A DNA stretch of 64,000 nt, from NCBI RefSeq assembly GCF_029350945.1, contig NZ_JARKMS010000004.1, forward strand, positions 62,001 to 126,000. Direction: 5' to 3'. A program made the translations under genes and the position numbers. Below are positions 6,074 through 54,820 of the stretch, piece by piece (the stretch's first letter is position 1; each line of letters begins with the position of its first letter). This DNA is from Maribacter huludaoensis (lineage in GTDB: Bacteria; Bacteroidota; Bacteroidia; Flavobacteriales; Flavobacteriaceae). The notes under the pieces were generated by a model, which was given only the letters and a program-made list of their open reading frames with translations, did no database searches and was not told where the DNA came from.

Positions 6074-7927
6074 ATGGAAGAAAAGAAATTTGATGTACAA
6101 TCCATCATAGGCTTTGTGCTTATTTTTGGAATACTCATCTTTATGTTTTACCAAAATCAGCCAACCCCGGAAGAGATTGAGGCAGAAAAGGCAAAGCAAG
6201 AACAGGTAGAGGCTGCGAAGGCATCAGAAAATTCAGAAACTGAAACTGTTATTAATGATGTACCGCAATTAGATTTAAAAGATTCTACTGCAGTTGCCAA
6301 TTACCAAGGAAAAATTGGTGCTTTTGGTTTTACAAAACCTTCTAACGACATTACTACTTTTGAGAATGAAGTTCTATTACTGAAGATCAGCAACAAAGGT
6401 GGGCAGATTGTAGAAGCGAAAATGAAACAATTTGTTACTTATGATTCTGTGCCGGTATATTTGGTAAAAGATGGTAATGCTTCATTTGGTTTAGATTTTG
6501 CGACATCTGATAATAGAATGTTGAATACTCAAGATCTATACTTTGAGCCTACAATGTCAAATGACAATGGTAACAAGGTGTTATCATTGAAGGCAAAAAC
6601 ATCTAATAGTCAATATTTAGAATATAGATATGTTATTAAACCGAACGACTATTTGGTAGATTTTACCATTAAGTCTAAAGGTTTGGATAATGTTATCAGT
6701 ACTAGTAAGCCAGTAACTTTAGATTGGAAGTTAAAAGGTATACGCCACTCAAAAAGTATTGAGTATGAGAATAGGTATACAAGATTGACCTATAATCATG
6801 AAGATGGTAAAATTAGCAAATTGTCTGAAGGAAGTGATGATGAGGAAACTGAGGAAGATATAAAGTGGATTTCTTATAGGCAGCATTTTTTTAGTAGTAT
6901 TCTAGCGGCAGATGAGCCTTTTAAAAATGGTGATTTAACATCTGTAAATTTAGTTGAGGAAGAAAGTAGAACTTTCGGTTTCACAAAAAAGTATGGTTCA
7001 AAGTTAGCGGTAGATTTAGAAGGTGGAGAACTATCTAAAGATTTACATTGGTATTTTGGCCCTACTGATGTAGATACCTTATCTAAGTACGAGGATTTAG
7101 GTCTGGTAGATTCCATTCCTTTTGGCTGGGGAATATTCGGTTGGATCAACCGTTACTTTTTCACCCCATTTTATAGTTTGATCAGTTCGTATTTTCCTTA
7201 TGGTATTGCCATTGTAATTATGACCATATTGGTACGTTTGGCAATGTCGCCAGTAACTTATAAGTCTTACCTGTCTCAGGCAAAAATGAAGGTTTTAAAA
7301 CCGGAAATTACGGAGCTAGGGGAGAAGTATAAGGATAATGCGATGAAAAAGCAGCAAGAAACCATGAAATTGTATGGTAAAGCAGGGGTAAGTCCTATGA
7401 GCGGTTGTATACCCGCGGTCATACAAATGCCAATTTTCTATGCACTGTTCATGTTTTTCCCCACATCGTTCGCATTACGCCAAAAACCATTTTTATGGGC
7501 AGATGACCTTTCTTCTTTTGATACTATTTATCAATTTCCAGAAGGATTCTCTATTCCATTCTATGGTGATCATGTTAGTTTATTTCCAATTTTGGCTTCT
7601 ATAGCTATATTCTTTTATATGAATATGACTACGGGTCAGAATATGCCAACGCAGCCAGGTATGCCCAACATGAAATTTATCATGTACCTAATGCCGTTTA
7701 TGATGTTGTTTTTCTTTAACAATTACGCAAGTGGTCTTAGTTTGTATTACTTTGTATCTAACCTTATTACCATAGGTATAATGTTGGTGATCAAGAATGT
7801 TATTATAGATAATGATAAGATCCATGCACAGATACAGGAGAACAAGAAGAAACCCAAGAAAGAAAATAAGTTCCAAAAGAAAATGCGCGAAATGATGGAA
7901 CAAGCAGAAGCGCAGAAAAAAAATTAA
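6074..7927 (+). CDS. yidC: Membrane protein insertase YidC
   Basis: YidC inserts and folds inner-membrane proteins, alone or with SecYEG. The 617 residues show the Gram-negative layout: an N-terminal membrane helix (about 13-31), a large periplasmic beta-sandwich domain (about 70-330), then the conserved hydrophobic core from about residue 360 with SPVTYKSYLSQAKMK and SPMSGCIPAVIQMPIFYALF. The C-terminal tail is lysine-rich, as in ribosome-binding versions. Length and start fit the family. A strong terminator follows. Confidence 0.97.
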   Translation: MEEKKFDVQSIIGFVLIFGILIFMFYQNQPTPEEIEAEKAKQEQVEAAKASENSETETVINDVPQLDLKDSTAVANYQGKIGAFGFTKPSNDITTFENEVLLLKISNKGGQIVEAKMKQFVTYDSVPVYLVKDGNASFGLDFATSDNRMLNTQDLYFEPTMSNDNGNKVLSLKAKTSNSQYLEYRYVIKPNDYLVDFTIKSKGLDNVISTSKPVTLDWKLKGIRHSKSIEYENRYTRLTYNHEDGKISKLSEGSDDEETEEDIKWISYRQHFFSSILAADEPFKNGDLTSVNLVEEESRTFGFTKKYGSKLAVDLEGGELSKDLHWYFGPTDVDTLSKYEDLGLVDSIPFGWGIFGWINRYFFTPFYSLISSYFPYGIAIVIMTILVRLAMSPVTYKSYLSQAKMKVLKPEITELGEKYKDNAMKKQQETMKLYGKAGVSPMSGCIPAVIQMPIFYALFMFFPTSFALRQKPFLWADDLSSFDTIYQFPEGFSIPFYGDHVSLFPILASIAIFFYMNMTTGQNMPTQPGMPNMKFIMYLMPFMMLFFFNNYASGLSLYYFVSNLITIGIMLVIKNVIIDNDKIHAQIQENKKKPKKENKFQKKMREMMEQAEAQKKN

Positions 7928-10507: not shown

Positions 10508-11698
10508 ATGAAAAAAGTAGTAATAGGACTTTCTGGGGGAGTAGATTCAAGTGTAGCGGCATACCTTTTAAAAGAGCAAGGTTATGACGTTATTGGCCTG
10601 TTTATGAAGAATTGGCATGATGATTCGGTAACCATATCAGAAGAATGTCCGTGGTTAGAAGATAGTAACGATGCCTTGATTGTTGCGGAGAAGTTGGGTA
10701 TTCCATTTCAAACGGTTGATTTAAGTGCTGAATATAAAGAACGTATAGTTGACTATATGTTCAGGGAATATGAAATGGGGAGAACCCCAAACCCTGATGT
10801 GTTATGCAATAGGGAAATCAAATTTGATGTCTTTATGAAAATAGCTATGCAGCTTGGGGCAGATTATGTAGCTACGGGTCATTACTGTAGAAAAGGCACC
10901 ATCAAAAATACAGACGGTACGGAAACCTATCAGTTATTGGCAGGGAAAGATGGTAATAAAGATCAGTCTTACTTTTTATGTCAATTATCGCAAGAGCAAT
11001 TATCAAAAACCTTATTTCCCATAGGGGAGTTGACCAAGCCACAGGTGAGGGAAATTGCTGGAAAAATGAATTTGATCACTGCTGATAAAAAAGATTCTCA
11101 GGGTTTATGTTTTATTGGTAAAGTAAGATTGCCTGAATTTTTACAACAACAATTAAAACCTAAGACCGGTAAAATTGTTGAGGTTCCTGCCGGGTTTGGT
11201 GCTTATGAACAAATAGCGCCAAGTTTCGACGATAAAAAATCAGAGTTGGCCTACTATGCGGAGAAACCGGTATATCATTTAAATGATGGTAAAGTAGTAG
11301 GTGAGCACCAAGGGGCACATTATTTTACCAAAGGGCAGCGTAAAGGTCTGCATGTTGGTGGAACAAAAGAACCTTTATTCGTAATTGATACTGATGTTAG
11401 TGAGAATATCATTTATACAGGTCAAGGCAAGGCACACCCAGGTTTGTATAGAAGAACTTTGTTTGTAAAGGATGAAGAAATACATTGGGTTCGTGAAGAT
11501 TTGGCTTTGAAAATTGATGAGAAGTTAGAGGTGAAAGCACGTATAAGATACAGACAAGAACTACAGGAAGCTACCATATATAGAGTAGAAGGTGGTATGT
11601 ACGTAGATTTTAAGGAAATGCAATCTGCCATTACCGAAGGTCAGTTCGTAGCTTGGTATTTAGAAGATGACCTTATAGGGTCTGGGGTTATTTCTTAA
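10508..11698 (+). CDS. mnmA: tRNA-specific 2-thiouridylase MnmA
   Basis: MnmA adds the 2-thio group to uridine 34 of tRNAs for Lys, Glu and Gln, using ATP and a persulfide relay. The 396-residue protein begins with the PP-loop motif [12 protein letters not shown] (8-19). It has the catalytic Cys in [11 protein letters not shown] (near 101) and the second Cys in SQGLCFIGK (near 200). [13 protein letters not shown] beta-barrel sequence fills the C-terminal third. Length is somewhat over the enterobacterial form, as is normal in Bacteroidota. It is a single gene; the 153-base gap after it shows nothing clear. Confidence 0.96.
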
Positions 11699-11851
11699 AA
11701 TATATATGGCGTTATAGGAGGATTCATAATATCTAAATCTGTATCATATTATTCCATAGTAGGTATTAAGTAGAATCAATGCTTGCGTTGAAAACTATAG
11801 TAACTATTCATTATAACCCTTTGGTGTTTTCCAGGGTAATTTACCTAGCTC

Positions 11852-12793
11852 ATGCAAAATAGAATTTCTGAACTTTTCAAAATAGAATTTCCAATAATTC
11901 AAGGAGGTATGATTTGGACCAGCGGATGGCGATTAGCCAGTGCGGTGTCCAATGCTGGTGGTCTGGGAGTTATTGGTGCCGGTAGTATGTATCCAGGTGT
12001 TTTACGCGAGCATATTCAAAAATGTAAAAAAGCGACTTCAAAACCTTTTGGAGTGAATATACCAATGTTGTATCCTGATATTGATAAGTTGATGGATATT
12101 ATTGTTGAGGAAAACGTCAAAATCGTATTTACATCCGCGGGAAACCCAAAAACGTGGACATCCTTTTTAAAGGAAAAAGGCATCACGGTTGTACATGTGG
12201 TCAGTAGTTTAAAGTTTGCTTTAAAGGCACAGGATGCGGGAGTAGATGCCATTGTAGCAGAAGGTTTTGAGGCAGGTGGACATAATGGTCGTGATGAAAC
12301 AACAACTATGGTTTTAATTCCGGCGGTTAAAGAGAAAATTCATATTCCCCTAATAGCCGCCGGTGGTATAGCAACTGGGAAAGCAATGTTAGCGGCAATG
12401 GTCTTAGGTGCAGATGCGGTGCAGGTTGGTAGTAGGTTTGTGGCAAGTGAAGAAGCGTCTAACCATATGAACTTTAAAGAAGTTGTGGTTAAAGCCAAAG
12501 AAGGTGATACCCATTTGACGTTAAAGGAGCTTGCCCCTGTTAGACTAGTAAAGAACAAGTTCTATAATGATGTACAAAAAGCCTACGCTACCGGAGCAAA
12601 TATTGAAGAACTAAAAACTCTTTTAGGAAGGGGGCGTGCCAAAAAAGGTATGTTTTTAGGCGACTTAGAAGATGGCGAACTAGAAATAGGTCAAGTATCT
12701 GCGTTGATACATGACATAAAACCGGCTGGTGAAATTGTTAGGGCGCTGATGAAAGAGTTTAATGAGAGGAAAGCAGAACTTTCCTCTCTATAA
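11852..12793 (+). CDS. Nitronate monooxygenase / FabK-like flavin oxidoreductase
   Basis: The 313-residue TIM-barrel flavoprotein has GGMIWTSGWRLASAVSNAGG at its start, the catalytic-His region AGGHNGRDE near residue 145 and the FMN-phosphate loop AAGGIATGKAM near 170. These occur both in nitronate monooxygenases (2-nitropropane dioxygenases) and in FabK-type enoyl-ACP reductases, which are hard to tell apart by eye. Expected cofactor is FMN with NAD(P)H or oxygen. No fatty-acid genes adjoin, so I leave the reaction open. It converges on the next gene with one base between stops. Confidence 0.85.
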   Translation: MQNRISELFKIEFPIIQGGMIWTSGWRLASAVSNAGGLGVIGAGSMYPGVLREHIQKCKKATSKPFGVNIPMLYPDIDKLMDIIVEENVKIVFTSAGNPKTWTSFLKEKGITVVHVVSSLKFALKAQDAGVDAIVAEGFEAGGHNGRDETTTMVLIPAVKEKIHIPLIAAGGIATGKAMLAAMVLGADAVQVGSRFVASEEASNHMNFKEVVVKAKEGDTHLTLKELAPVRLVKNKFYNDVQKAYATGANIEELKTLLGRGRAKKGMFLGDLEDGELEIGQVSALIHDIKPAGEIVRALMKEFNERKAELSSL

Positions 12794-40065: not shown

Positions 40066-40638
40066 TTATTGTAAGGTTACTTTCTGTACATCATCTTCGG
40101 TAACACCCAAATGTGCCATTACAGAATTGATGTTAGAAGTATCTAATTTTCCAGTTGTTGATTCTGCTGGTAAAACGGCAATTCTAAAAACTTGATTGTC
40201 AGTATCTCCAGGCTGTAAAGTTGAAAGGTCAAAATCTGACTCTAAGAATATATTTACGTCTAAAAAGGTATAGTCAAAGTTGTATTGTAGCAACCCTTGA
40301 TCTAAAATTCTTGTTTGTGGCATCAATCTCCAGATATCAACAGATTCACCATTGCTATCTTCGGTTACGTCCCAAAGCATATAAACCAAAACTACATCAG
40401 TTTCAAAAACTTCTACCGTTTGCGGAAACTCATAAAATATAGAATAGTCATTTTCTAAAGTAAAGGTACCTTCAATGTCCATTACCTTACCTAGAATGTT
40501 TATCCCGTCCTGGCCGTCAAGACCATCCAAACCATCCACACCATCAAAGCCGTCAAAACCAGGAGGTCCCTGTGGTCCTTCACAGGAAATTATAAATAAG
40601 GCGGCAAGTACTCCAATAAATAAATTCAGTTTTCTCAT
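40066..40638 (-). CDS. Collagen-like lipoprotein
   Basis: The 190-residue protein has a lipoprotein signal (lipobox FIISC-E, Cys19) followed at once by about eight G-x-y collagen-type triplets (GPQGPPGFDGFDGVDG and so on, 21-45), mostly G-F/V/L-D. A beta-rich C-terminal domain (about 50-190) of unknown family follows. Short collagen-like stalks after a lipid anchor are common in Flavobacteriaceae and probably trimerise the protein at the cell surface. Function unknown; single gene with its own terminator. Confidence 0.8.
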   Translation of the reverse strand: MRKLNLFIGVLAALFIISCEGPQGPPGFDGFDGVDGLDGLDGQDGINILGKVMDIEGTFTLENDYSIFYEFPQTVEVFETDVVLVYMLWDVTEDSNGESVDIWRLMPQTRILDQGLLQYNFDYTFLDVNIFLESDFDLSTLQPGDTDNQVFRIAVLPAESTTGKLDTSNINSVMAHLGVTEDDVQKVTLQ

Positions 40639-47494: not shown

Positions 47495-48031
47495 ATGAAA
47501 TATTTATTTAGTCTCCTAAGTTTATCGTTACTATTAGTCTCTTGTGGTACCAACAGTGTAGATTTGGCTATTGACAACCCAACGACCGAACCTGTTATTA
47601 TCAAAGTAGATTCATTAGAAGTTGAAATACCTGCAGAACAAGTAGTTTGGGTTGAAATGGGTAAGGGTATGCATTCTTTGACTTTAAAGAACGATAGTAT
47701 TGTAGATTTTAATTTTCAGGAAGATGTGTATATGGTCAATCCAACTTTAACGGAATATTTAATGGCTGGTGAATATTACGGCAGTAATAATTCTTACTCT
47801 ATATATCAATTGACCAATAAAAGAACTGTTGAGTTTTTAGGTGTTGAGCTTGAAGGCGATTATGCAATTGTTGATGGTCTGATCAACCCGGTTACTTGGG
47901 ATTATGGACCACGGGAAACGTTACCAGAGACAGTGCAAATGGAATCTACTGCTGGTTATGAGGTGCTTCAAAAACTATTTTCTCCCATAGAATTCATCAA
48001 TTTGGTTTCTGCATCAAGAGAGCTAGAGTAA
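47495..48031 (+). CDS. Lipoprotein of unknown function upstream of speD
   Basis: The 178-residue protein has a lipoprotein signal (LLLVSC-G, Cys17) and a beta-rich acidic body (IDNPTTEPVIIKVDSLEVEI; EQVVWVEMGKGMHSLTLKN), which looks like a small immunoglobulin-like domain followed by a helical end. I recognise no family. Only 22 bases separate it from the TTG of speD, and no terminator lies between them, so the two are probably co-transcribed and it may belong to the polyamine cluster. Confidence 0.7.
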   Translation: MKYLFSLLSLSLLLVSCGTNSVDLAIDNPTTEPVIIKVDSLEVEIPAEQVVWVEMGKGMHSLTLKNDSIVDFNFQEDVYMVNPTLTEYLMAGEYYGSNNSYSIYQLTNKRTVEFLGVELEGDYAIVDGLINPVTWDYGPRETLPETVQMESTAGYEVLQKLFSPIEFINLVSASRELE

Positions 48032-48053: not shown

Positions 48054-48428
48054 TTGTTCATAGGTATTCATGCTACTTGGGATGTGTATAATTGTAATGC
48101 AGAAAAGCTTTCTTTTGTCCCTTATATAAAGGAATCTTTACATACAATTACGGCTACTCTTAATTTAGAAGAACTAAATGAAGCATTCAAGCAATTTGAA
48201 CCTATTGGTGTAACAGGTTTTATTCTTTTGGCAGAAAGTCATATTAGTATTCATACATGGCCAGAGCATAATTATGCAGCTGTAGATGTATTTTCATGTA
48301 AAGAATTTGATGCCAATGTGGTTACCGGATTGTTGAAAAAGCTATTTGAATCTAATAAAATAGAGCTGAACAAATTGAACAGGGGCTCATTGGATTTGGT
48401 GAAACCTTCCAATTTGGATATTAGATAA
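48054..48428 (+). CDS. speD: S-adenosylmethionine decarboxylase proenzyme
   Basis: SpeD makes decarboxylated AdoMet, the aminopropyl donor for spermidine. The 124-residue protein has the class 1B size. The self-cleavage site is LLAE-SHISIHTWPE, with the pyruvoyl-forming Ser62, and the expected His67 and Cys82 (DVFSC) match the Thermotoga enzyme's Ser63/His68/Cys83 as I recall them. The start must be TTG 48054, since an in-frame TAA lies at 48048-48050. The 3' end overlaps the convergent ATP-grasp gene by eight bases. An aminopropyltransferase gene lies 1.8 kb away. Confidence 0.94.
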   Translation: MFIGIHATWDVYNCNAEKLSFVPYIKESLHTITATLNLEELNEAFKQFEPIGVTGFILLAESHISIHTWPEHNYAAVDVFSCKEFDANVVTGLLKKLFESNKIELNKLNRGSLDLVKPSNLDIR

Positions 48429-49599
48429 TATAATGGGAAATAAATTCACAATCATCTGATATAATCGGGTTTTCTTCTGCTCGTAAATTTAGGGCAGAAG
48501 GCTTATCCGTAAAAAACAGTCCTGTTTGATAGTAGTAATTCTCCATGTCTTTTTCTAAAGGGTAAAACTTTTGATACACTTTTTCTTGCCCATCAAAATC
48601 ACCTTTAGATTTAGAATTTAATTTACCCGTAATGGTTATGTTTTCGCCCAACCTCCCGTACACTGGCTTAGTTACGTAATTCTCAAGACTAGGAGGGTTT
48701 AAAAATGTTTGCGCTATTGTATCATTAGGAAAATGCTGGGTAATATAGCTCATGAATTTTTTATTTTGCCAGATAGCGCTATAAGGAGGATTAAATACTG
48801 TGCAAAGATCTTTGCAAATTATAGTGGAGAGCTCTTTTGCCAATTGAGGTTCTTCATTGAACATCCAATCCCAAGGAATCATTTTAAACCAGACATCTAC
48901 CATTTGGTATTCCCCGTTTATTTCATATAGAATTCCGTTTTCTTCAGAGAAAATGACATCTTCAAGATTTACATAGAATGATTTATACCCTTGGTCATGC
49001 GCAATATCCAATATAGAATTTACATTTAAGACATCTTCTTTATACCCAAATGAAGAGCCCAGTATAAATGGGTTTGAATGATTGATGGTACTTTTTAAAC
49101 TGTGTAATATACTGCCTATATCCTTGGTCAGATTGTTGAATTGGCTGTGGTCATTGCCTTTTAATTCTTTGTTCTGTAAAGATTGCCAATGAATGGTTTC
49201 AGGTAATGTGCTACATGTATCGGCATTAAATTCAATTATACGGGATTCCGGCTGTTTTATACCTCCGTTAATATCAAATCGTCCATATAAAAAAGGATGC
49301 TTGCTTCTGTTTTTCCAAGTATGCCGTATACAGTCATGAAAGAACTCAGGTATACCCAAGTCTGTTAACTTGTTCTCGTTGATAATTTTATCGGTAGCTT
49401 TTTCAAATAAATCATATGCCCCTGTACTTAGTTTTTTATAATTTTCTATTTCAAAATTATAAAGCCCTAGTAATTCATCCGTAAAATAATCTTGCTTTAA
49501 GTACCAAAGTAAATGATGGGAGACATGCTTTTTTTTTAATCGTTTTATTTCTTTAAAACGATTATCCTCCAAACGACCTAAACGATTTTCCGCTTCCAT
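48421..49599 (-). CDS. Glutathionylspermidine synthase-like ATP-grasp ligase (YgiC/YjfC type)
   Basis: The 392-residue protein matches the synthetase half of glutathionylspermidine synthase without the amidase domain. Visible landmarks are RFDINGG and RIIEFNADTCSTLPET (near 105-135), KMIPWDWMFNEEPQ (near 240), VYGRLGENITI (near 320) and FFTDKPSALNLRAEENPI before the ISHYI end. Such ligases use ATP to make an amide between a carboxylate and a polyamine. I prefer ATG 49599; an in-frame TTG at 49623 is also possible. It overlaps the end of the lipoprotein gene by 38 bases. The acceptor here is not known. Confidence 0.88.
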   Translation of the reverse strand: MEAENRLGRLEDNRFKEIKRLKKKHVSHHLLWYLKQDYFTDELLGLYNFEIENYKKLSTGAYDLFEKATDKIINENKLTDLGIPEFFHDCIRHTWKNRSKHPFLYGRFDINGGIKQPESRIIEFNADTCSTLPETIHWQSLQNKELKGNDHSQFNNLTKDIGSILHSLKSTINHSNPFILGSSFGYKEDVLNVNSILDIAHDQGYKSFYVNLEDVIFSEENGILYEINGEYQMVDVWFKMIPWDWMFNEEPQLAKELSTIICKDLCTVFNPPYSAIWQNKKFMSYITQHFPNDTIAQTFLNPPSLENYVTKPVYGRLGENITITGKLNSKSKGDFDGQEKVYQKFYPLEKDMENYYYQTGLFFTDKPSALNLRAEENPIISDDCEFISHYII

Positions 49600-50128
49600 A
49601 TCCTTTTGATGATGCTCCTGCAACTCTAATTTTTCTTGAAGTAGCGGAACTTTTTAAATCATTTTTTAAATCTGTCGATTTGTTATAGGCAGTAGAATTT
49701 TTATAGTAACTGGAATTTGGTGTTACGTTAGATAAATTTCTGTTGAAATAAGAAGAAGCTAATGAGTAATATAAAATAGTTCTAAGACCGGATCTGTTAC
49801 GGTAATTTGTTTCGTTAGAATTATTATCGATTTTGGCCAATGACAAAGTATCTATTTGGCCATCTAGACCATGTACTATAGCAATAGAATTTTCTTTCTT
49901 GTCAATAATGCGTTCGTCTATAATTTTATAGTCATCGCCCGGTTCAATTTCCTCAACTTCGGTAACTGTACCTTTTGTAGCCTCGTAAATTGTTTTTTCT
50001 TCAGAGTCTTTAATTCTTGGGCTTCCGTCATTATCACCACAACTGGTCAATAAAATAGAAGTGCCTAAAGCGGTGGTTAGCATTAATTTTCTTGAAAATG
50101 CCAATCCAGTCATCATTTTTTTATTCAT
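49562..50128 (-). CDS. YgiB-like lipoprotein with C-terminal Gly-Gly
   Basis: The 188-residue protein has a basic N-terminus (FSRKLML), a hydrophobic stretch and a lipobox (ILLTSC-G, Cys30). The mid-section is acidic, then Ser/Asn/Tyr-rich, and the end is basic: GYGSGKSFRSFGG. E. coli YgiB (DUF1190), encoded beside the ligase YgiC, has a similar N-terminal pattern and, as I recall, ends in RSMGG. By context this is the YgiB counterpart. The ligase gene overlaps its 3' end. The terminal glycine could be the ligase's acceptor carboxylate; that is inference. Body sequence similarity to DUF1190 is weak by eye. Confidence 0.7.
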   Translation of the reverse strand: MNKKMMTGLAFSRKLMLTTALGTSILLTSCGDNDGSPRIKDSEEKTIYEATKGTVTEVEEIEPGDDYKIIDERIIDKKENSIAIVHGLDGQIDTLSLAKIDNNSNETNYRNRSGLRTILYYSLASSYFNRNLSNVTPNSSYYKNSTAYNKSTDLKNDLKSSATSRKIRVAGASSKGYGSGKSFRSFGG

Positions 50129-50179
50129 CTTTGAAACGGTTTTCTATTGTAGAATAGTAATCAAACTTAACTAAATTTT

Positions 50180-51706
50180 ATGAGAAATAGAGTACTTATT
50201 TCGTTTGCTGTTTTTATTGCCGGTCTTTGTTCCATCATATATGAACTTTTGATCAGTACTACAGCAACTTATTTTTTAGGTGATGGTGTTAGGCAATTTT
50301 CGATAATTATAGGTGTTTACTTGTTTTCAATGGGTATTGGGGCATTTTTATCAAAATTTCTACGAGAAATGCCTTTGAAATTTTTTGTACACATAGAATT
50401 TTTATTGGGTTTAATAGGTGGCATATCGGTACCGTTACTTTTTTATTCATTTGTGTCGGTCAATGCCCTTGCCTTACAAATAATATGTTTGGTAATAATA
50501 TTATTGATAGGTCTTTTAACGGGTATGGAAGTGCCTTTGTTGACATTTGTGTCTAATGAAGTTGATTTTAAAAATAATTTATCCAATGTTCTGTCTTTGG
50601 ATTATATAGGCGGGCTGATCGCTACATTATTGTTTCCTTTTATTTTATTGCCATTTGTTGGGTTGTATTATTCCTCATTAATTTTTGGAATAATCAATAT
50701 TCTATTAGGGTTGGTTTTAAATCATTTTCTATTAGAAAAATCTAAAAAAACATTGGTGTTGGGTATAGCTTCTATGACCGTTCTAGTTATTTTGGTAGTC
50801 TTTGGAGGTAAATTTTTGAAAATATGGGACCAAGCTATATATAAAAACCCCATTGTTTTAAATGAACAAACGCCCTATCAAAAAATAGTAGTTACAAAAA
50901 AAAAGGAAGATGTTAGGTTGTATTTGAACAGGGTCATACAATTTTCTTCTTCTGATGAATATAGGTATCATGAACCTTTGGTGCATATACCGATCTCTTT
51001 ACATAAAAATCCAAAATCAGTATTGATCCTTGGTGGTGGTGAAAATTTGGCAAGTAGGGAAGTGTTGAAGCACCCTGGTATTACGCGCGTAGATGTTGTG
51101 GATATTGATAGTACAATGTTTCATTTAGCTAAAAGAGATCCATATTTTACGAAAATAAATGAAGGTGCAGCGAAGGATATACGTGTAAATTTAATTGCAC
51201 AAGACGCTTTTACGTTTTTGTATAATGAAGCTAAAGGATATGATATTATAATTGCCGATCTGCCCGACCCTACAAATGAAGCTTTGGCAAGGTTGTACAG
51301 TAAACAATTTTTTCTTCTGGCCAAGCAATGTTTAAATAAAGATGGGTTGTTCGTAACCCAATCTGGTGAAATATACTTTTCCAATTCTGTGTTCAGTTGT
51401 ATCAACAATACCTTAGCGCCAATTTTTAATTATGTAAAGCCATACCATTCTTATATTCCGTCATTTGGAGATTGGGGTTTTGTAATGGCAAGTGATGAAG
51501 AAATAGAAGAGGAGAATATAAAATCTGTACTGCCTTCAGATTTAAAATTTTTGACGGAAAACCAATTTCAAATGGCTTTTCAATTTCCAAAAGATATTAC
51601 CATTAAAGAAACTAAGGTCAATACTCTTGATAGCCCCATAATTTTGAATTATTTCATTGATGATTGGAATAAATGGAAAACCGATCTGCAATCGGGTACA
51701 AAATAA
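50180..51706 (+). CDS. Membrane-anchored spermidine synthase-like aminopropyltransferase
   Basis: The 508-residue protein has an N-terminal domain of about seven membrane helices (residues 5-215; AGLCSIIYELLISTTATYFLG) and a C-terminal spermidine synthase fold (about 225-430): PYQKIVV, LYLNRVIQFSSSDEYRYHEP, LILGGGENLASREVLKHPG, VDIDSTM and ADLPDPTNEALARLYS. It would transfer aminopropyl groups from decarboxylated AdoMet to a diamine or other acceptor. The AdoMet loop has GGGEN where most enzymes have GGGDG. It is divergent from the YgiB-like lipoprotein gene by 51 bases; SpeD in the same cluster supplies its donor. Confidence 0.9.
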   Translation: MRNRVLISFAVFIAGLCSIIYELLISTTATYFLGDGVRQFSIIIGVYLFSMGIGAFLSKFLREMPLKFFVHIEFLLGLIGGISVPLLFYSFVSVNALALQIICLVIILLIGLLTGMEVPLLTFVSNEVDFKNNLSNVLSLDYIGGLIATLLFPFILLPFVGLYYSSLIFGIINILLGLVLNHFLLEKSKKTLVLGIASMTVLVILVVFGGKFLKIWDQAIYKNPIVLNEQTPYQKIVVTKKKEDVRLYLNRVIQFSSSDEYRYHEPLVHIPISLHKNPKSVLILGGGENLASREVLKHPGITRVDVVDIDSTMFHLAKRDPYFTKINEGAAKDIRVNLIAQDAFTFLYNEAKGYDIIIADLPDPTNEALARLYSKQFFLLAKQCLNKDGLFVTQSGEIYFSNSVFSCINNTLAPIFNYVKPYHSYIPSFGDWGFVMASDEEIEEENIKSVLPSDLKFLTENQFQMAFQFPKDITIKETKVNTLDSPIILNYFIDDWNKWKTDLQSGTK

Positions 51707-51854: not shown

Positions 51855-52589
51855 TTAGTTTTTAGAAATACTGCCCGATCCAGAACTTTTTGTGTTTACT
51901 TTATCTGGATTGCCTTTATATGAAATATCACCAGAGCCAGATACACGGGCTTTGATAGATTTGTTTGCGGTCACTTCTATATCTGCAGAACCGGAAACTG
52001 TAGCTTCTACATTATCCGCTTCTAGATCATATGCCTCTATATCTCCACTACCAGAGATAGTAGCTTCAAAGTTATTTGTAGTACCACTTAAGGTTATATT
52101 GCCTGACCCTGACATTGAAGTAGAAAGTGAGTTAGAATCTATATCTAGTGTAATATCTCCAGAACCGGACATTGCCGTACTGAAATTATCGGCTTTTATT
52201 TTTGTTTTTCCAACAATATCACCTGAACCTGATAGGGCAACATGGTCAATAGATTCTACTGGAACGGTAATAAGAATTTTTGATTTCCAATTGCTGGTTT
52301 TTAGATTAAAACCTTTTTCCGTCCTGATTATTAGTTTTCCATCTTTTACTTCTGTAATAATATATTCTAAAAGGTTTTCTTCGCCATTTAGGGTAATCTC
52401 CCCTTCGTTACCAGAAACCAAGTCAACATCAAACCAGCCGGATACTGCTACTCCGTCATAATCGCCGGTGTTTCTTTCAATGGTAATATTGTTTCCGTTT
52501 CCTTTAATGGTCTTTCCCCATTGTGCAGAACAAGAAAATGAGATTAATGCTGCACTTAGTAATACACTTAATTTTTTCATGATTTTCAT
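51855..52589 (-). CDS. Head-GIN (DUF2807) surface protein
   Basis: The 244-residue protein has a signal peptide with lipobox-like end (ISFSC-SAQ) and a right-handed beta-solenoid of repeated GSGDI/GSGNI units (about 120-240: ALSGSGDIVGK, AMSGSGDITL, SMSGSGNITL, TISGSGDIEAY and so on). DUF2807 / putative auto-transporter adhesin, head GIN, fits. Function unproven; probably surface-exposed. It is the last gene of the sigma/anti-sigma operon. ATG 52589 or ATG 52580 may be used; an ATTG array lies just upstream. Confidence 0.9.
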   Translation of the reverse strand: MKIMKKLSVLLSAALISFSCSAQWGKTIKGNGNNITIERNTGDYDGVAVSGWFDVDLVSGNEGEITLNGEENLLEYIITEVKDGKLIIRTEKGFNLKTSNWKSKILITVPVESIDHVALSGSGDIVGKTKIKADNFSTAMSGSGDITLDIDSNSLSTSMSGSGNITLSGTTNNFEATISGSGDIEAYDLEADNVEATVSGSADIEVTANKSIKARVSGSGDISYKGNPDKVNTKSSGSGSISKN

Positions 52590-52594
52590 TTTTA

Positions 52595-52628
<34 letters not shown>

Positions 52629-52630
52629 AT

Positions 52631-53725
52631 TTATTTTTTGGTAAAACTTATTCCGCCATAATCACTTGAAAGCGTCATTTTATTTCCCTTTCCTTTAGAG
52701 CCATAAAAGCCTTCATAATGCTTGTCCGAAGATTTTTCTGTGCTAATATTAATGGTAAAGTCGTCTTTTCCGCTTACACCCGCATAACTGGTAGATATAT
52801 CAAAATCGAAATGATATTGGCTGTTATATCCTATTTTAATACCTGTATAATCCGTTCTTATTTCTACATTGCCCGCATCTGCCGCCAATTCGTCTATACG
52901 AACAGAACCATAGTCTGCCACGATAGAAACGTTTCCATGAATGGTGCCCAGTTTTATGGTAATGTAATCGCCATTTCCATCTATATTGTTCAATTCGGAA
53001 ACATCCATATTTCCATAATTACTGGTATATTCTAAATTATCCATGGTGCCGATACTTGCATTTGTATAGTCGGCGTTGATAGCAAGGTTACCGGCTTTTT
53101 CAATAGTAAAGCCAGAATAGTCGGCTCTAATTTCTGCACTATTAATGTACCCTATCGTAGATTTAGAAGTGTAGTCAAAGTTTAATTTATTGTTTCTGCC
53201 TCTAAGTTCACCAAGTTCCAATCTGCCATAATCACAATTAATTCTTGCATGCCCATCAATTCTGTCCAATATAATATTTCCGTAATCGTTACTTAGGTCT
53301 ACATTATTCTTGACAGGGACTTTTATGGTGTAGTTGATCTGCATATTTACATTACCATTATTTCCCCAGCTCCATCCCCAACCATTGTTATTTTTGTTAA
53401 AAATGGTTTTTGCGGAAACGCGTTCGCTGCTAGCTTCAAAATCAACGGATATTTCATCCAATTTTTTCTGAACCTTATCTTCGTTGTTGCCGTTAGTTTT
53501 AATATGTACTTCTATCACTACCTTATTTTCGTTCCAAGAAGTAATGTTTAAATTGCCGTAAGAATTGTTGATCTTAAGCAATGCATTGGCATTGACGTTG
53601 AATTCTTTTTTTATGGTTTTTTCTCTAGTGTGTTTACCGTCAAAAGAGGTGTCATTGGCATTGGCAGCAGTAGTAAATACAAGCATAAGTAGCCAAGTAT
53701 ATTTATATAGTAAAGTTTTCATCAT
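52631..53725 (-). CDS. DUF4097-like putative adhesin
   Basis: Starting at ATG 53725 (364 residues), the protein has a signal peptide (to about residue 24, ANA-ND) and a long repeated beta-helix with Asp-Tyr-Gly/Asp-Tyr-Thr turns (SYGNLNITS, NDYGNIILDRI, CDYGRLELGEL, ADYGSVRIDEL). This resembles DUF4097 / bacterial adhesin-like solenoids. The frame's extension to 53755 lies in the upstream gene. It overlaps the anti-sigma-like gene by 23 bases. The role is unknown; the operon suggests it responds to envelope stress. Confidence 0.8.
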   Translation of the reverse strand: MMKTLLYKYTWLLMLVFTTAANANDTSFDGKHTREKTIKKEFNVNANALLKINNSYGNLNITSWNENKVVIEVHIKTNGNNEDKVQKKLDEISVDFEASSERVSAKTIFNKNNNGWGWSWGNNGNVNMQINYTIKVPVKNNVDLSNDYGNIILDRIDGHARINCDYGRLELGELRGRNNKLNFDYTSKSTIGYINSAEIRADYSGFTIEKAGNLAINADYTNASIGTMDNLEYTSNYGNMDVSELNNIDGNGDYITIKLGTIHGNVSIVADYGSVRIDELAADAGNVEIRTDYTGIKIGYNSQYHFDFDISTSYAGVSGKDDFTINISTEKSSDKHYEGFYGSKGKGNKMTLSSDYGGISFTKK

Positions 53726-54266
53726 TTGCTTTTTTAATTGATTTAATATTTTCAATTTGAATCATAACCTCATTTAATAGGTCGATCCTTGTTTGGAAAT
53801 TGGTGATCATGGCACTTAAAATTAACCTGCTGTTACCTCCATTTAAAAGGTCTTGCTCCATTTGGGTATAATTCAGCTGTAGCTTCTTTAATTGGACCAT
53901 GGTGTCATTAATAATTTTTTCTGTTTCGGGTGATTTTTCCGAATTCAGTTCTTTTACTTGCTCTTCTATTAAATTGGCAAAATAGAATTGCGTTTTTGAT
54001 GCTTCTGGCGAAATCTCGGCAACTTTTTCTTCAATACTTGATGCTGTTTTGAATTGGGATAAGCCAACCGTTAATAAAATGGCAAGTGATGCCGCAACCG
54101 ATAGAAATAGTAACCAATTGTTCTTTTTCTTGGTTTCAAGTGTAACTACGCCTTTAGATTCGTTTAGTTTTTCTAAAAATCGCTGTTGGTGCCCACTGGC
54201 GGGTTCGGCATAATCCAATTGGTCCTGTAGCTTATTAAAAAGCTCGTCAATAGTATCTTTCTTCAT
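53703..54266 (-). CDS. Anti-sigma-like single-pass membrane protein
   Basis: The 187-residue protein has a cytoplasmic N-terminus (1-46), one membrane helix (about 48-66; WLLFLSVAASLAILLTVGLS) and an extracytoplasmic helical, coiled-coil-like domain rich in Glu/Lys/Gln (about 80-180). Its ATG overlaps the sigma stop (TAATG), the classic sigma/anti-sigma pairing. No zinc motif is visible, so the sigma-binding mode is unclear. Function is by context and topology. Confidence 0.75.
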   Translation of the reverse strand: MKKDTIDELFNKLQDQLDYAEPASGHQQRFLEKLNESKGVVTLETKKKNNWLLFLSVAASLAILLTVGLSQFKTASSIEEKVAEISPEASKTQFYFANLIEEQVKELNSEKSPETEKIINDTMVQLKKLQLNYTQMEQDLLNGGNSRLILSAMITNFQTRIDLLNEVMIQIENIKSIKKANDENFTI

Positions 54267-54820
54267 TAGACTACGAGTGTTAGTTTTTTTCTTAAACTTT
54301 CTTTTGCTCTAGAAACGGTAGTTCTGCAATTGGCATAACTAATGTTCATAATTTCACTGATTTCATCATAATCAAACCCTTCAATTAGATGTAAGGTCAA
54401 AGAAATTCTGTAGTTGTCTTTTAAATCTTTCATGGTTTCCATCACTTTTTGAGCCTTTAGTTCTGTAAACACATGGTCAGATGCAATTCCGTCATTATCT
54501 TCGACCTTGTACAATACTTCATCTAAAGCAACTTCGTTCTTTTTTTGTTGCTTTCTATATTGATGTATACTGTTATTGATAACAATACGCTTTAGCCAAG
54601 ATCCAAAAGTTACTTCCCCTTTAAAAGTATGCAGCTTCGTAAATGCGCTTAAAAACGATTCTTGCATAATGTCTTCCGCTTGGGCAGTATCTTTTACAAT
54701 TCTAAGTGATGTATTGTACATAGCCTTGTAATACCTGTTGTACACTTCTAGCTGTGCACTTTGTTTACCGGCTAAGCACAATTGCACTAGCTCATCAATA
54801 TGTTCTCTTTGTTGGCTCAA
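54266..54820 (-). CDS. ECF RNA polymerase sigma factor
   Basis: The 184-residue ECF sigma has region 2 (about 20-90; AEDIMQESFLSAFTKLHTF and SWLKRIVINNSIHQYRK) and region 4 (about 120-175; DYDEISEIMNISYANCRTTVSRAKE). It starts with TTG at 54820. It heads a four-gene operon: sigma, anti-sigma-like, adhesin-like, head-GIN. The motif TGTAACAAA lies 38 bases upstream and is shared with the other ECF gene. Confidence 0.93.
   Translation of the reverse strand: MSQQREHIDELVQLCLAGKQSAQLEVYNRYYKAMYNTSLRIVKDTAQAEDIMQESFLSAFTKLHTFKGEVTFGSWLKRIVINNSIHQYRKQQKKNEVALDEVLYKVEDNDGIASDHVFTELKAQKVMETMKDLKDNYRISLTLHLIEGFDYDEISEIMNISYANCRTTVSRAKESLRKKLTLVV

Follow-up and report, generated by a model that had tools for sequence, protein, structure and literature searches.

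A flavobacterial gene cluster that may attach polyamines to the Gly-Gly end of a lipoprotein and extend them at the membrane

Main

Glutathionylspermidine synthetase (GspS) couples spermidine to glutathione at its glycine, and the chemistry of GspS/amidase and trypanothione synthetase is the joining of a polyamine amine to a glycine carboxylate. Here we describe a gene cluster in a 64,000-nucleotide stretch of the Maribacter huludaoensis genome (the window) in which a ligase with the same PF03738 synthetase domain as these enzymes is found with a lipoprotein that ends in Gly-Gly, the S-adenosylmethionine (AdoMet) decarboxylase SpeD, and a membrane-fused aminopropyltransferase of the spermidine synthase fold (mSpeE). 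Unlike GspS/amidase and trypanothione synthetase, the window ligase has no amidase domain, and its likely acid substrate is a protein end rather than glutathione. We propose, with a confidence just short of even, that the cluster specifies a lipoprotein-modifying pathway in which a (poly)amine is first placed on the C-terminal glycine by the ligase and is then lengthened by mSpeE with aminopropyl groups that the SpeD product supplies.

The nearest characterized ligases are YgiC and YjfC of Escherichia coli, for which peptide–spermidine ligation has been described (Pederick et al. 2023, Biochemistry 62:899, as cited in the available parts of PMC12568646); the accessible text of PMC12506659 states that YgiC is without glutathionylspermidine synthase activity. 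The YgiB–YgiC and YjfM–YjfC pairs resemble the window in having a lipoprotein-like gene directly before a GspS-type ligase and a partner that ends in -GG. They differ from it in that the partner belongs to DUF1190, whereas that of the window is of the UPF0323/PF26303 type, and in that neither SpeD nor mSpeE is among the neighbours shown. The E. coli yjf operon includes PspA-family and DUF350 genes, both of which the window cluster lacks.

For the other half of the cluster, Li et al. 2019 (Biochem J 476:2579) are said to have linked an AdoMet decarboxylase to a fusion of a major facilitator superfamily (MFS) domain and spermidine synthase (SpdSyn), and to have noted links to the GspS family while leaving the acceptor open. 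That system shares with the window the combination of SpeD and a membrane-fused spermidine-synthase-like enzyme, and the tail pattern described below offers a candidate acceptor. This combination recurs in bacteria; if the tail pattern does mark the acceptor, it would provide the enzyme family with a testable target.

Two groups of PspA–CesT/Tir polyamine operons described in PMC11237479, as far as its available parts go, are also related. The second group contains a seven-transmembrane (7TM) spermidine-synthase fusion, DUF350, DUF4178 and a lipoprotein, and the third group and its variants contain a GspS-type ligase, DUF350 and DUF1190, with an AdoMet decarboxylase in the variants. In those operons the 7TM–SpeE fusion and the ligase fall into different groups, whereas the window has both together; the window cluster also differs in having no DUF350, PspA or CesT gene. 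The ligase activity, mSpeE neighbourhoods with DUF350 and a lipoprotein, and ligase neighbourhoods with AdoMet decarboxylase are already known, but the C-terminal residues of the partner proteins are not mentioned in the parts of PMC11237479 available. The window joins a membrane aminopropyltransferase to a peptide–polyamine ligase and a Gly-Gly lipoprotein, and its relatives without a ligase have a partner with a conserved Lys at its end.

Genes of the cluster

SpeD, the GspS-type ligase, the lipoprotein and mSpeE all lie within 48054–51706, where an earlier note, made from the letters of this DNA alone, had placed them. The gene at 47495–48031 (+ strand), which encodes a second lipoprotein of 178 amino acids (aa), is a fifth member of the set. 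Both strands are used (SpeD and mSpeE on +, ligase and Gly-Gly lipoprotein on −), and the cluster is therefore not one operon here.

SpeD (48054–48428, +, with a TTG start) is a class 1b AdoMet decarboxylase that matches PF02675 (E = 7e-32) and scores 111.5 bits against TIGR03330 (cut-off 75.65). The pyruvoyl site is intact, as the earlier note had claimed: Ser62, His67 and Cys82 align with the residues that serve processing and catalysis in the T. maritima enzyme, as named in the available parts of PMC10407285. AdoMet is the probable substrate, in that the equivalog score does not suggest a neofunctionalized ornithine or arginine decarboxylase. A genome-wide search finds no other copy.

The ligase (48421–49572, −) has PF03738 as its sole Pfam match (E = 3e-67) and lacks an N-terminal amidase domain, again in agreement with the first reading. 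Its best sequence matches in the PDB are E. coli YjfC (7uk6) and YgiC (7uk8), although PDB matches reach just 44 to 57 bits; the GRxD, ExNADT and RxGxN motifs are kept when the protein is aligned with YgiC, YjfC and five further ligases. Translation probably starts at TTG 49572, inside the last codons of the lipoprotein gene, giving a protein of 383 aa. This assignment follows from the conservation of xTG GAG GAT in the 21 loci compared (the window, L002 and L006–L024): in every one the lipoprotein gene ends in TTT, TAT or CAT followed by GGA GGA TAR, and the other frame reads TTG or ATG and then GAG GAT. In the window this overlap (49562–49573, −) reads TTT GGA GGA TAA (Phe-Gly-Gly-stop) for the lipoprotein and TTG GAG GAT for the ligase.

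The Gly-Gly lipoprotein (49562–50128, −; 188 aa) carries the conserved end SFRSFGG, and a short gap (50129–50179) separates its gene from the divergent mSpeE gene (50180–51706, +; 508 aa). The claim that mSpeE fuses about seven membrane helices to a spermidine-synthase domain is borne out: the protein scores 553 bits against the PRK03612 equivalog (cut-off 472), and its AlphaFold2 model (mean pLDDT 76.8; other models 63 to 73) has seven long N-terminal helices followed by a domain of the spermidine-synthase fold, for which the best Foldseek match is 1uir (E = 2.5e-15). The conserved D..DP motif of the SpeE fold is present, and mSpeE is the only PF01564 gene in the genome. Positive charge is found at the N terminus and in loops 2–3 and 6–7, and loops 1–2, 3–4 and 5–6 are near neutral, which suggests that the N terminus is inside. 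The seven helices would then place the catalytic domain outside the membrane, where the ends of exported partners also lie. Positive charge follows helix 7 too, however, so the outside location is a prediction only.

The second lipoprotein matches no Pfam family. Its best AlphaFold2 model is beta-rich (pLDDT 82.5, with the other four models at 50–59), and a fold search of this protein against the PDB gave no match at E ≤ 0.001. In the Maribacter zhoushanensis locus (L006, which is outside alignment A6) the equivalent gene (11578–12111, −) stops one codon earlier than that of the window.

Linkage in related genomes

A ligase similarity scan, with one genome taken per species, gave 19 named loci in relatives. 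The co-occurrence of the four families to which the earlier note had looked holds: the lipoprotein, ligase and SpeD are together in all 19, and mSpeE is present in 18 (the contig of L017 ends there). The second lipoprotein lies beside the set in 18 of the 19, the exception being L023, from Apibacter, and all five genes are together in 17. The relatives with the cluster include the culturable Cellulophaga baltica (L008/L009). L019, L020 and L021 have the genes for the lipoprotein, the ligase, the second lipoprotein and SpeD in that order on one strand, with the second lipoprotein inserted between ligase and SpeD, and in L023 SpeD is also on the ligase strand. The M48 and MFS genes that flank the cluster were not found in the flanks examined of L016, L019–L021 and L023. 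Linkage is thus kept despite changes of order and flanks, with four of the 19 loci rearranged, which indicates that the block holds together by more than chance.

The gene set is nevertheless rare. Among 395 Bacteroidota genomes, ligase, SpeD, lipoprotein and mSpeE are together in three (the window, G275 and G183), and the ligase is over cut-off in only two of 120 Flavobacteriaceae genomes, the window included. A weak, sub-cut-off PF03738 match in G080 (L077, 7348–11795) has a neighbour that, judged by eye from the start of its sequence, looks like a GCS2-type carboxylate–amine ligase, and is perhaps a different amidoligase cluster.

The earlier note had also reported DUF350 and PspA-like partners to be absent. 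This is true of the cluster, and for DUF350 of the whole genome, which was searched, but PspA is encoded on another contig of the same genome.

The Gly-Gly end of the lipoprotein

At thresholds up to E = 0.1 the Gly-Gly lipoprotein matches no Pfam family, and 98 of its 99 listed relatives carry PF26303, some under the name UPF0323. By the Pfam evidence we reject its assignment to DUF1190, the family of YgiB, as it lacks a PF06693 match. The description of the protein as YgiB-like in the earlier note does not stand, nor does the suggestion that the cluster is simply a minimal flavobacterial form of a YgiB, DUF350 and PspA system.

Gly-Gly ends 97 of the 99 listed homologues, within ...SFRS[F/Y/H]GG or close variants, and the other two are truncated or continue in a different reading frame. 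A similar end is found in the E. coli partners, YgiB (-SRSMGG) and YjfM (-GHWGG), whose genes adjoin those of YgiC and YjfC, both annotated in RefSeq as peptide–spermidine ligases. Among the best 120 of 1192 DUF1190 matches, which are mostly close enterobacterial relatives, 116 end in GG; two of the other four end in GS and two are odd or short.

PF03738 occurs in 32 Bacteroidota genomes. Flanks were examined in the window and 20 others, of which L124–L126 are weak matches and stand outside the counts; 11 further genomes with weak matches are outside the flank comparison. Among the 17 strong ligase loci outside the window, six have a GG lipoprotein (L116, L118 and L120–L123, with one intervening gene in L116), and mSpeE and SpeD adjoin the ligase only in L122 and L123.

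These loci allow the Gly-Gly end to be separated from the ligase start. In L116, L118, L120 and L121 GG is kept with the codons GGC GGG, GGC GGC or GGC GGT and without overlap with the ligase start; in L122 and L123 it is kept as GGC GGA even with a ligase that begins M-A-D; and in E. coli there is no overlap between the two genes. We therefore reject the idea that GG is a mere by-product of the overlapping ligase start.

Lysine-ended partners at mSpeE loci without a ligase

In the 120 Flavobacteriaceae genomes a long, strong PF01564 match is found in nine and SpeD in ten; both are present in nine, within about 4 kb of each other, and only two of these nine have the ligase. Around mSpeE and SpeD in the seven loci without it (L068–L074), Pfam assignments run on representatives give DUF4178 in seven, an ion-channel-type gene in six, DUF350 in five, and PspA and CesT-type genes in two, a layout resembling the second group in the available parts of PMC11237479. 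All seven have a lipoprotein that ends [ST]RSR[SG]GG[FY]GK. The best 120 of 512 matches to this lysine-tailed lipoprotein (query copy included) all end in -GK, and the residues before it vary.

A sample of the phylum gives a similar picture. A 20-row mSpeE profile gave a long match at E < 1e-100 in 29 of the 395 Bacteroidota genomes, leaving out a 716-aa match in G383 and matches to the catalytic domain alone. The ligase is adjacent in the three genomes with the full set, and in all three the partner ends in GG. Of the 26 without an adjacent ligase, 25 have a membrane-anchored partner, or a fused tail, that ends in Lys (for the small partners, single transmembrane (TM) segments and lipoprotein signals were assigned by visual inspection). 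Eight of them have a -GK lipoprotein, whose tail in G428 is fused to a DUF4178 protein. Sixteen have a tiny single-TM protein ending in -HK, encoded before a small DUF350-type gene and mSpeE; in one of these, G121, the tail is -SGSHK and is fused to a larger DUF4178-type protein. The last, G444 (L164), has a 78-aa TM protein ending in -GGK and no ligase match.

No PF03738 match is present in 25 of the 26 genomes. The exception, G283, carries two separate loci: at L121 a ligase accompanies a GG lipoprotein, and at L177 mSpeE accompanies a -YHK protein. A FastTree tree of mSpeE places the -GGK locus L164 with L122 and L123 (support 0.94), and these with the window type (0.99). We also considered an acceptor-site motif as a discriminator between ligase-type and lysine-type mSpeE, but it is undecisive: PSFG.WG is common to the ligase-type and -YHK-type enzymes, and it is the -GK type that differs. 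The two lysine tails that are fused to DUF4178-type proteins are encoded in L161 (5760–6464) and L176 (about 6900–7320, reverse strand), linking the DUF4178-type domain to the tail-bearing partner.

A possible pathway and its alternatives

In the pathway that we propose, SpeD would make decarboxylated AdoMet (dcAdoMet), and the ligase, which needs ATP, would couple a diamine or polyamine to the carboxylate of the last glycine in the -SFRSFGG lipoprotein. This step would probably occur before or during export. mSpeE would then add one or more aminopropyl groups from the SpeD product to the free amine at the lipoprotein end, and the outcome would be a cationic tail at the membrane. In clusters without a ligase, the encoded C-terminal lysine would supply the amine in the ligase's stead. 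The single-copy SpeD and PF01564 enzymes and the Gly-Gly-ended lipoprotein beside the ligase fit a dedicated pathway with an envelope target. To this extent they agree with the earlier note, which had proposed a membrane-associated pathway that makes a polyamine and attaches it to such a target; the making of a free polyamine is the part that may not carry over, as mSpeE need not do this.

A bolder generalization, to which we give only about a one-in-three chance, is that the partner ends form a C-terminal amine code. The acceptor of mSpeE would be the last residue of its partner, either an encoded Lys (-GK, -HK or -GGK) or a (poly)amine installed by the ligase on -GG, and the chain would be built on the protein by SpeD and mSpeE, perhaps outside the cytoplasm. 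If the proposed pathway is correct, envelope proteins of bacteria bear at their ends polyamines that are built on the protein; if the code is also correct, it would amount to a post-translational modification of a new kind and would identify the missing acceptor for the widespread pair of SpeD and membrane-fused SpdSyn. Neither lysine ends nor protein aminopropylation by these enzymes is mentioned in the open literature searched, a scope that leaves out most subscription papers, or in the available parts of PMC11237479. Searches of the open literature on C-terminal spermidine and on ATP-grasp enzymes with Gly-Gly gave nothing relevant, and the GG end may already have been described elsewhere.

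Several observations weigh against the proposed pathway. Either location of the mSpeE catalytic domain poses a difficulty: outside, dcAdoMet must cross the membrane, and inside, the end of an exported lipoprotein is out of reach. The GG codons of the window group overlap the ligase start and are GGA GGA in all 21 loci compared, so part of the conservation of GG could reflect selection on the ligase. In nine of the 17 strong ligase loci (L107–L115), which have no mSpeE, the partner ends in SS, HA or GS, and of the others L117 shows no partner and L119 only a doubtful frame ending in GGG. GG is consequently not a universal end of ligase partners, and the specificity for the acid end may differ between ligase subfamilies. 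In several of L107–L115 the SS, HA or GS end follows a GGFGR-like motif. One mSpeE locus without a ligase (L182, in G347) has no recognizable partner. Lys ends 102 of the 640 open frames that reach 150 aa or more at these loci, so a single Lys end means little, and GG ends nine of them, partners included. Finally, the choice of partners was guided by position and family rather than made blind, and related genomes do not count as independent. The weight of the lysine pattern rests on invariance within families and on agreement over three families without visible sequence similarity.

The main rival, which is close to the reading of the earlier note and which we consider unlikely though still a serious contender, is that polyamine is supplied first and ligated afterwards: SpeD and mSpeE would convert putrescine into spermidine or a similar polyamine in free form, and this finished molecule would be attached to the C-terminal glycine by the ligase. 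It is favoured by the fact that these are the only SpeD and the only spermidine-synthase-fold gene in the genome, by the naming of YgiC and YjfC as peptide–spermidine ligases, and by the score of mSpeE above the cut-off of a polyamine aminopropyltransferase equivalog. The genome also has a SpeA-like gene (matched by arginine decarboxylase models below their cut-offs) that adjoins an arginase-family gene, whereas nspC and agmatine deiminase were not found in the genome searched. The SpeA-like and arginase-family genes suggest that putrescine can be made and hence that plain spermidine synthesis is possible, which counts against the pathway that we propose. What this rival leaves unexplained is the Lys-ended membrane protein in 25 of the 26 mSpeE loci without an adjacent ligase, for which an enzyme making free polyamine would have no need. 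Li et al. 2019 reportedly found that membrane-fused spermidine-synthase-like enzymes do not make spermidine, and reportedly saw no complementation. That study is cited in the available parts of PMC11237479 for 'aminopropylation of other substrates'.

It is less probable still that two separate modules happen to be neighbours, the ligase using polyamine from the general pool on the lipoprotein, and SpeD and mSpeE having a different acceptor, such as a lipid, a cell-wall part or the second lipoprotein. Each half does occur alone: ligase and lipoprotein are found without mSpeE or SpeD nearby in L116, L118, L120, L121 and E. coli, and mSpeE and SpeD are found without the ligase. Two independent modules would not, however, be expected to keep five genes together in 17 of 19 relatives through changes of flanks and order (of the remaining two, one lacks the second lipoprotein only and the other is on a contig that is cut off before mSpeE), nor would the end of the partner at mSpeE loci be expected to change with the ligase.

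Least probable, and in our view improbable, is that the GG and Lys ends are unmodified signals for docking, sorting or protease resistance on lipoproteins that travel with the enzymes, for although the tails are basic and of low complexity, Lys ends are common and some ligase partners end in SS, HA or GS, the termini vary least in tails that are variable elsewhere, they differ with the enzyme present, and GG suits the known chemistry of GspS-type enzymes.

Neighbouring genes

Adjoining mSpeE, the region 51855–54820 (−) encodes a DUF2807 protein, a surface-type protein and a small membrane-anchored protein with no Pfam matches, and an extracytoplasmic function (ECF) sigma factor. DUF2807 is counted into the 'Toastrack' domain in the available parts of PMC11237479. 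In the 19 relatives, DUF2807-like genes are near the cluster in 14 and sigma-like genes in 15. At 40066–40638 (−), the window encodes a lipoprotein with a short collagen-like Gly-X-Y stretch that scores below the Pfam cut-off.

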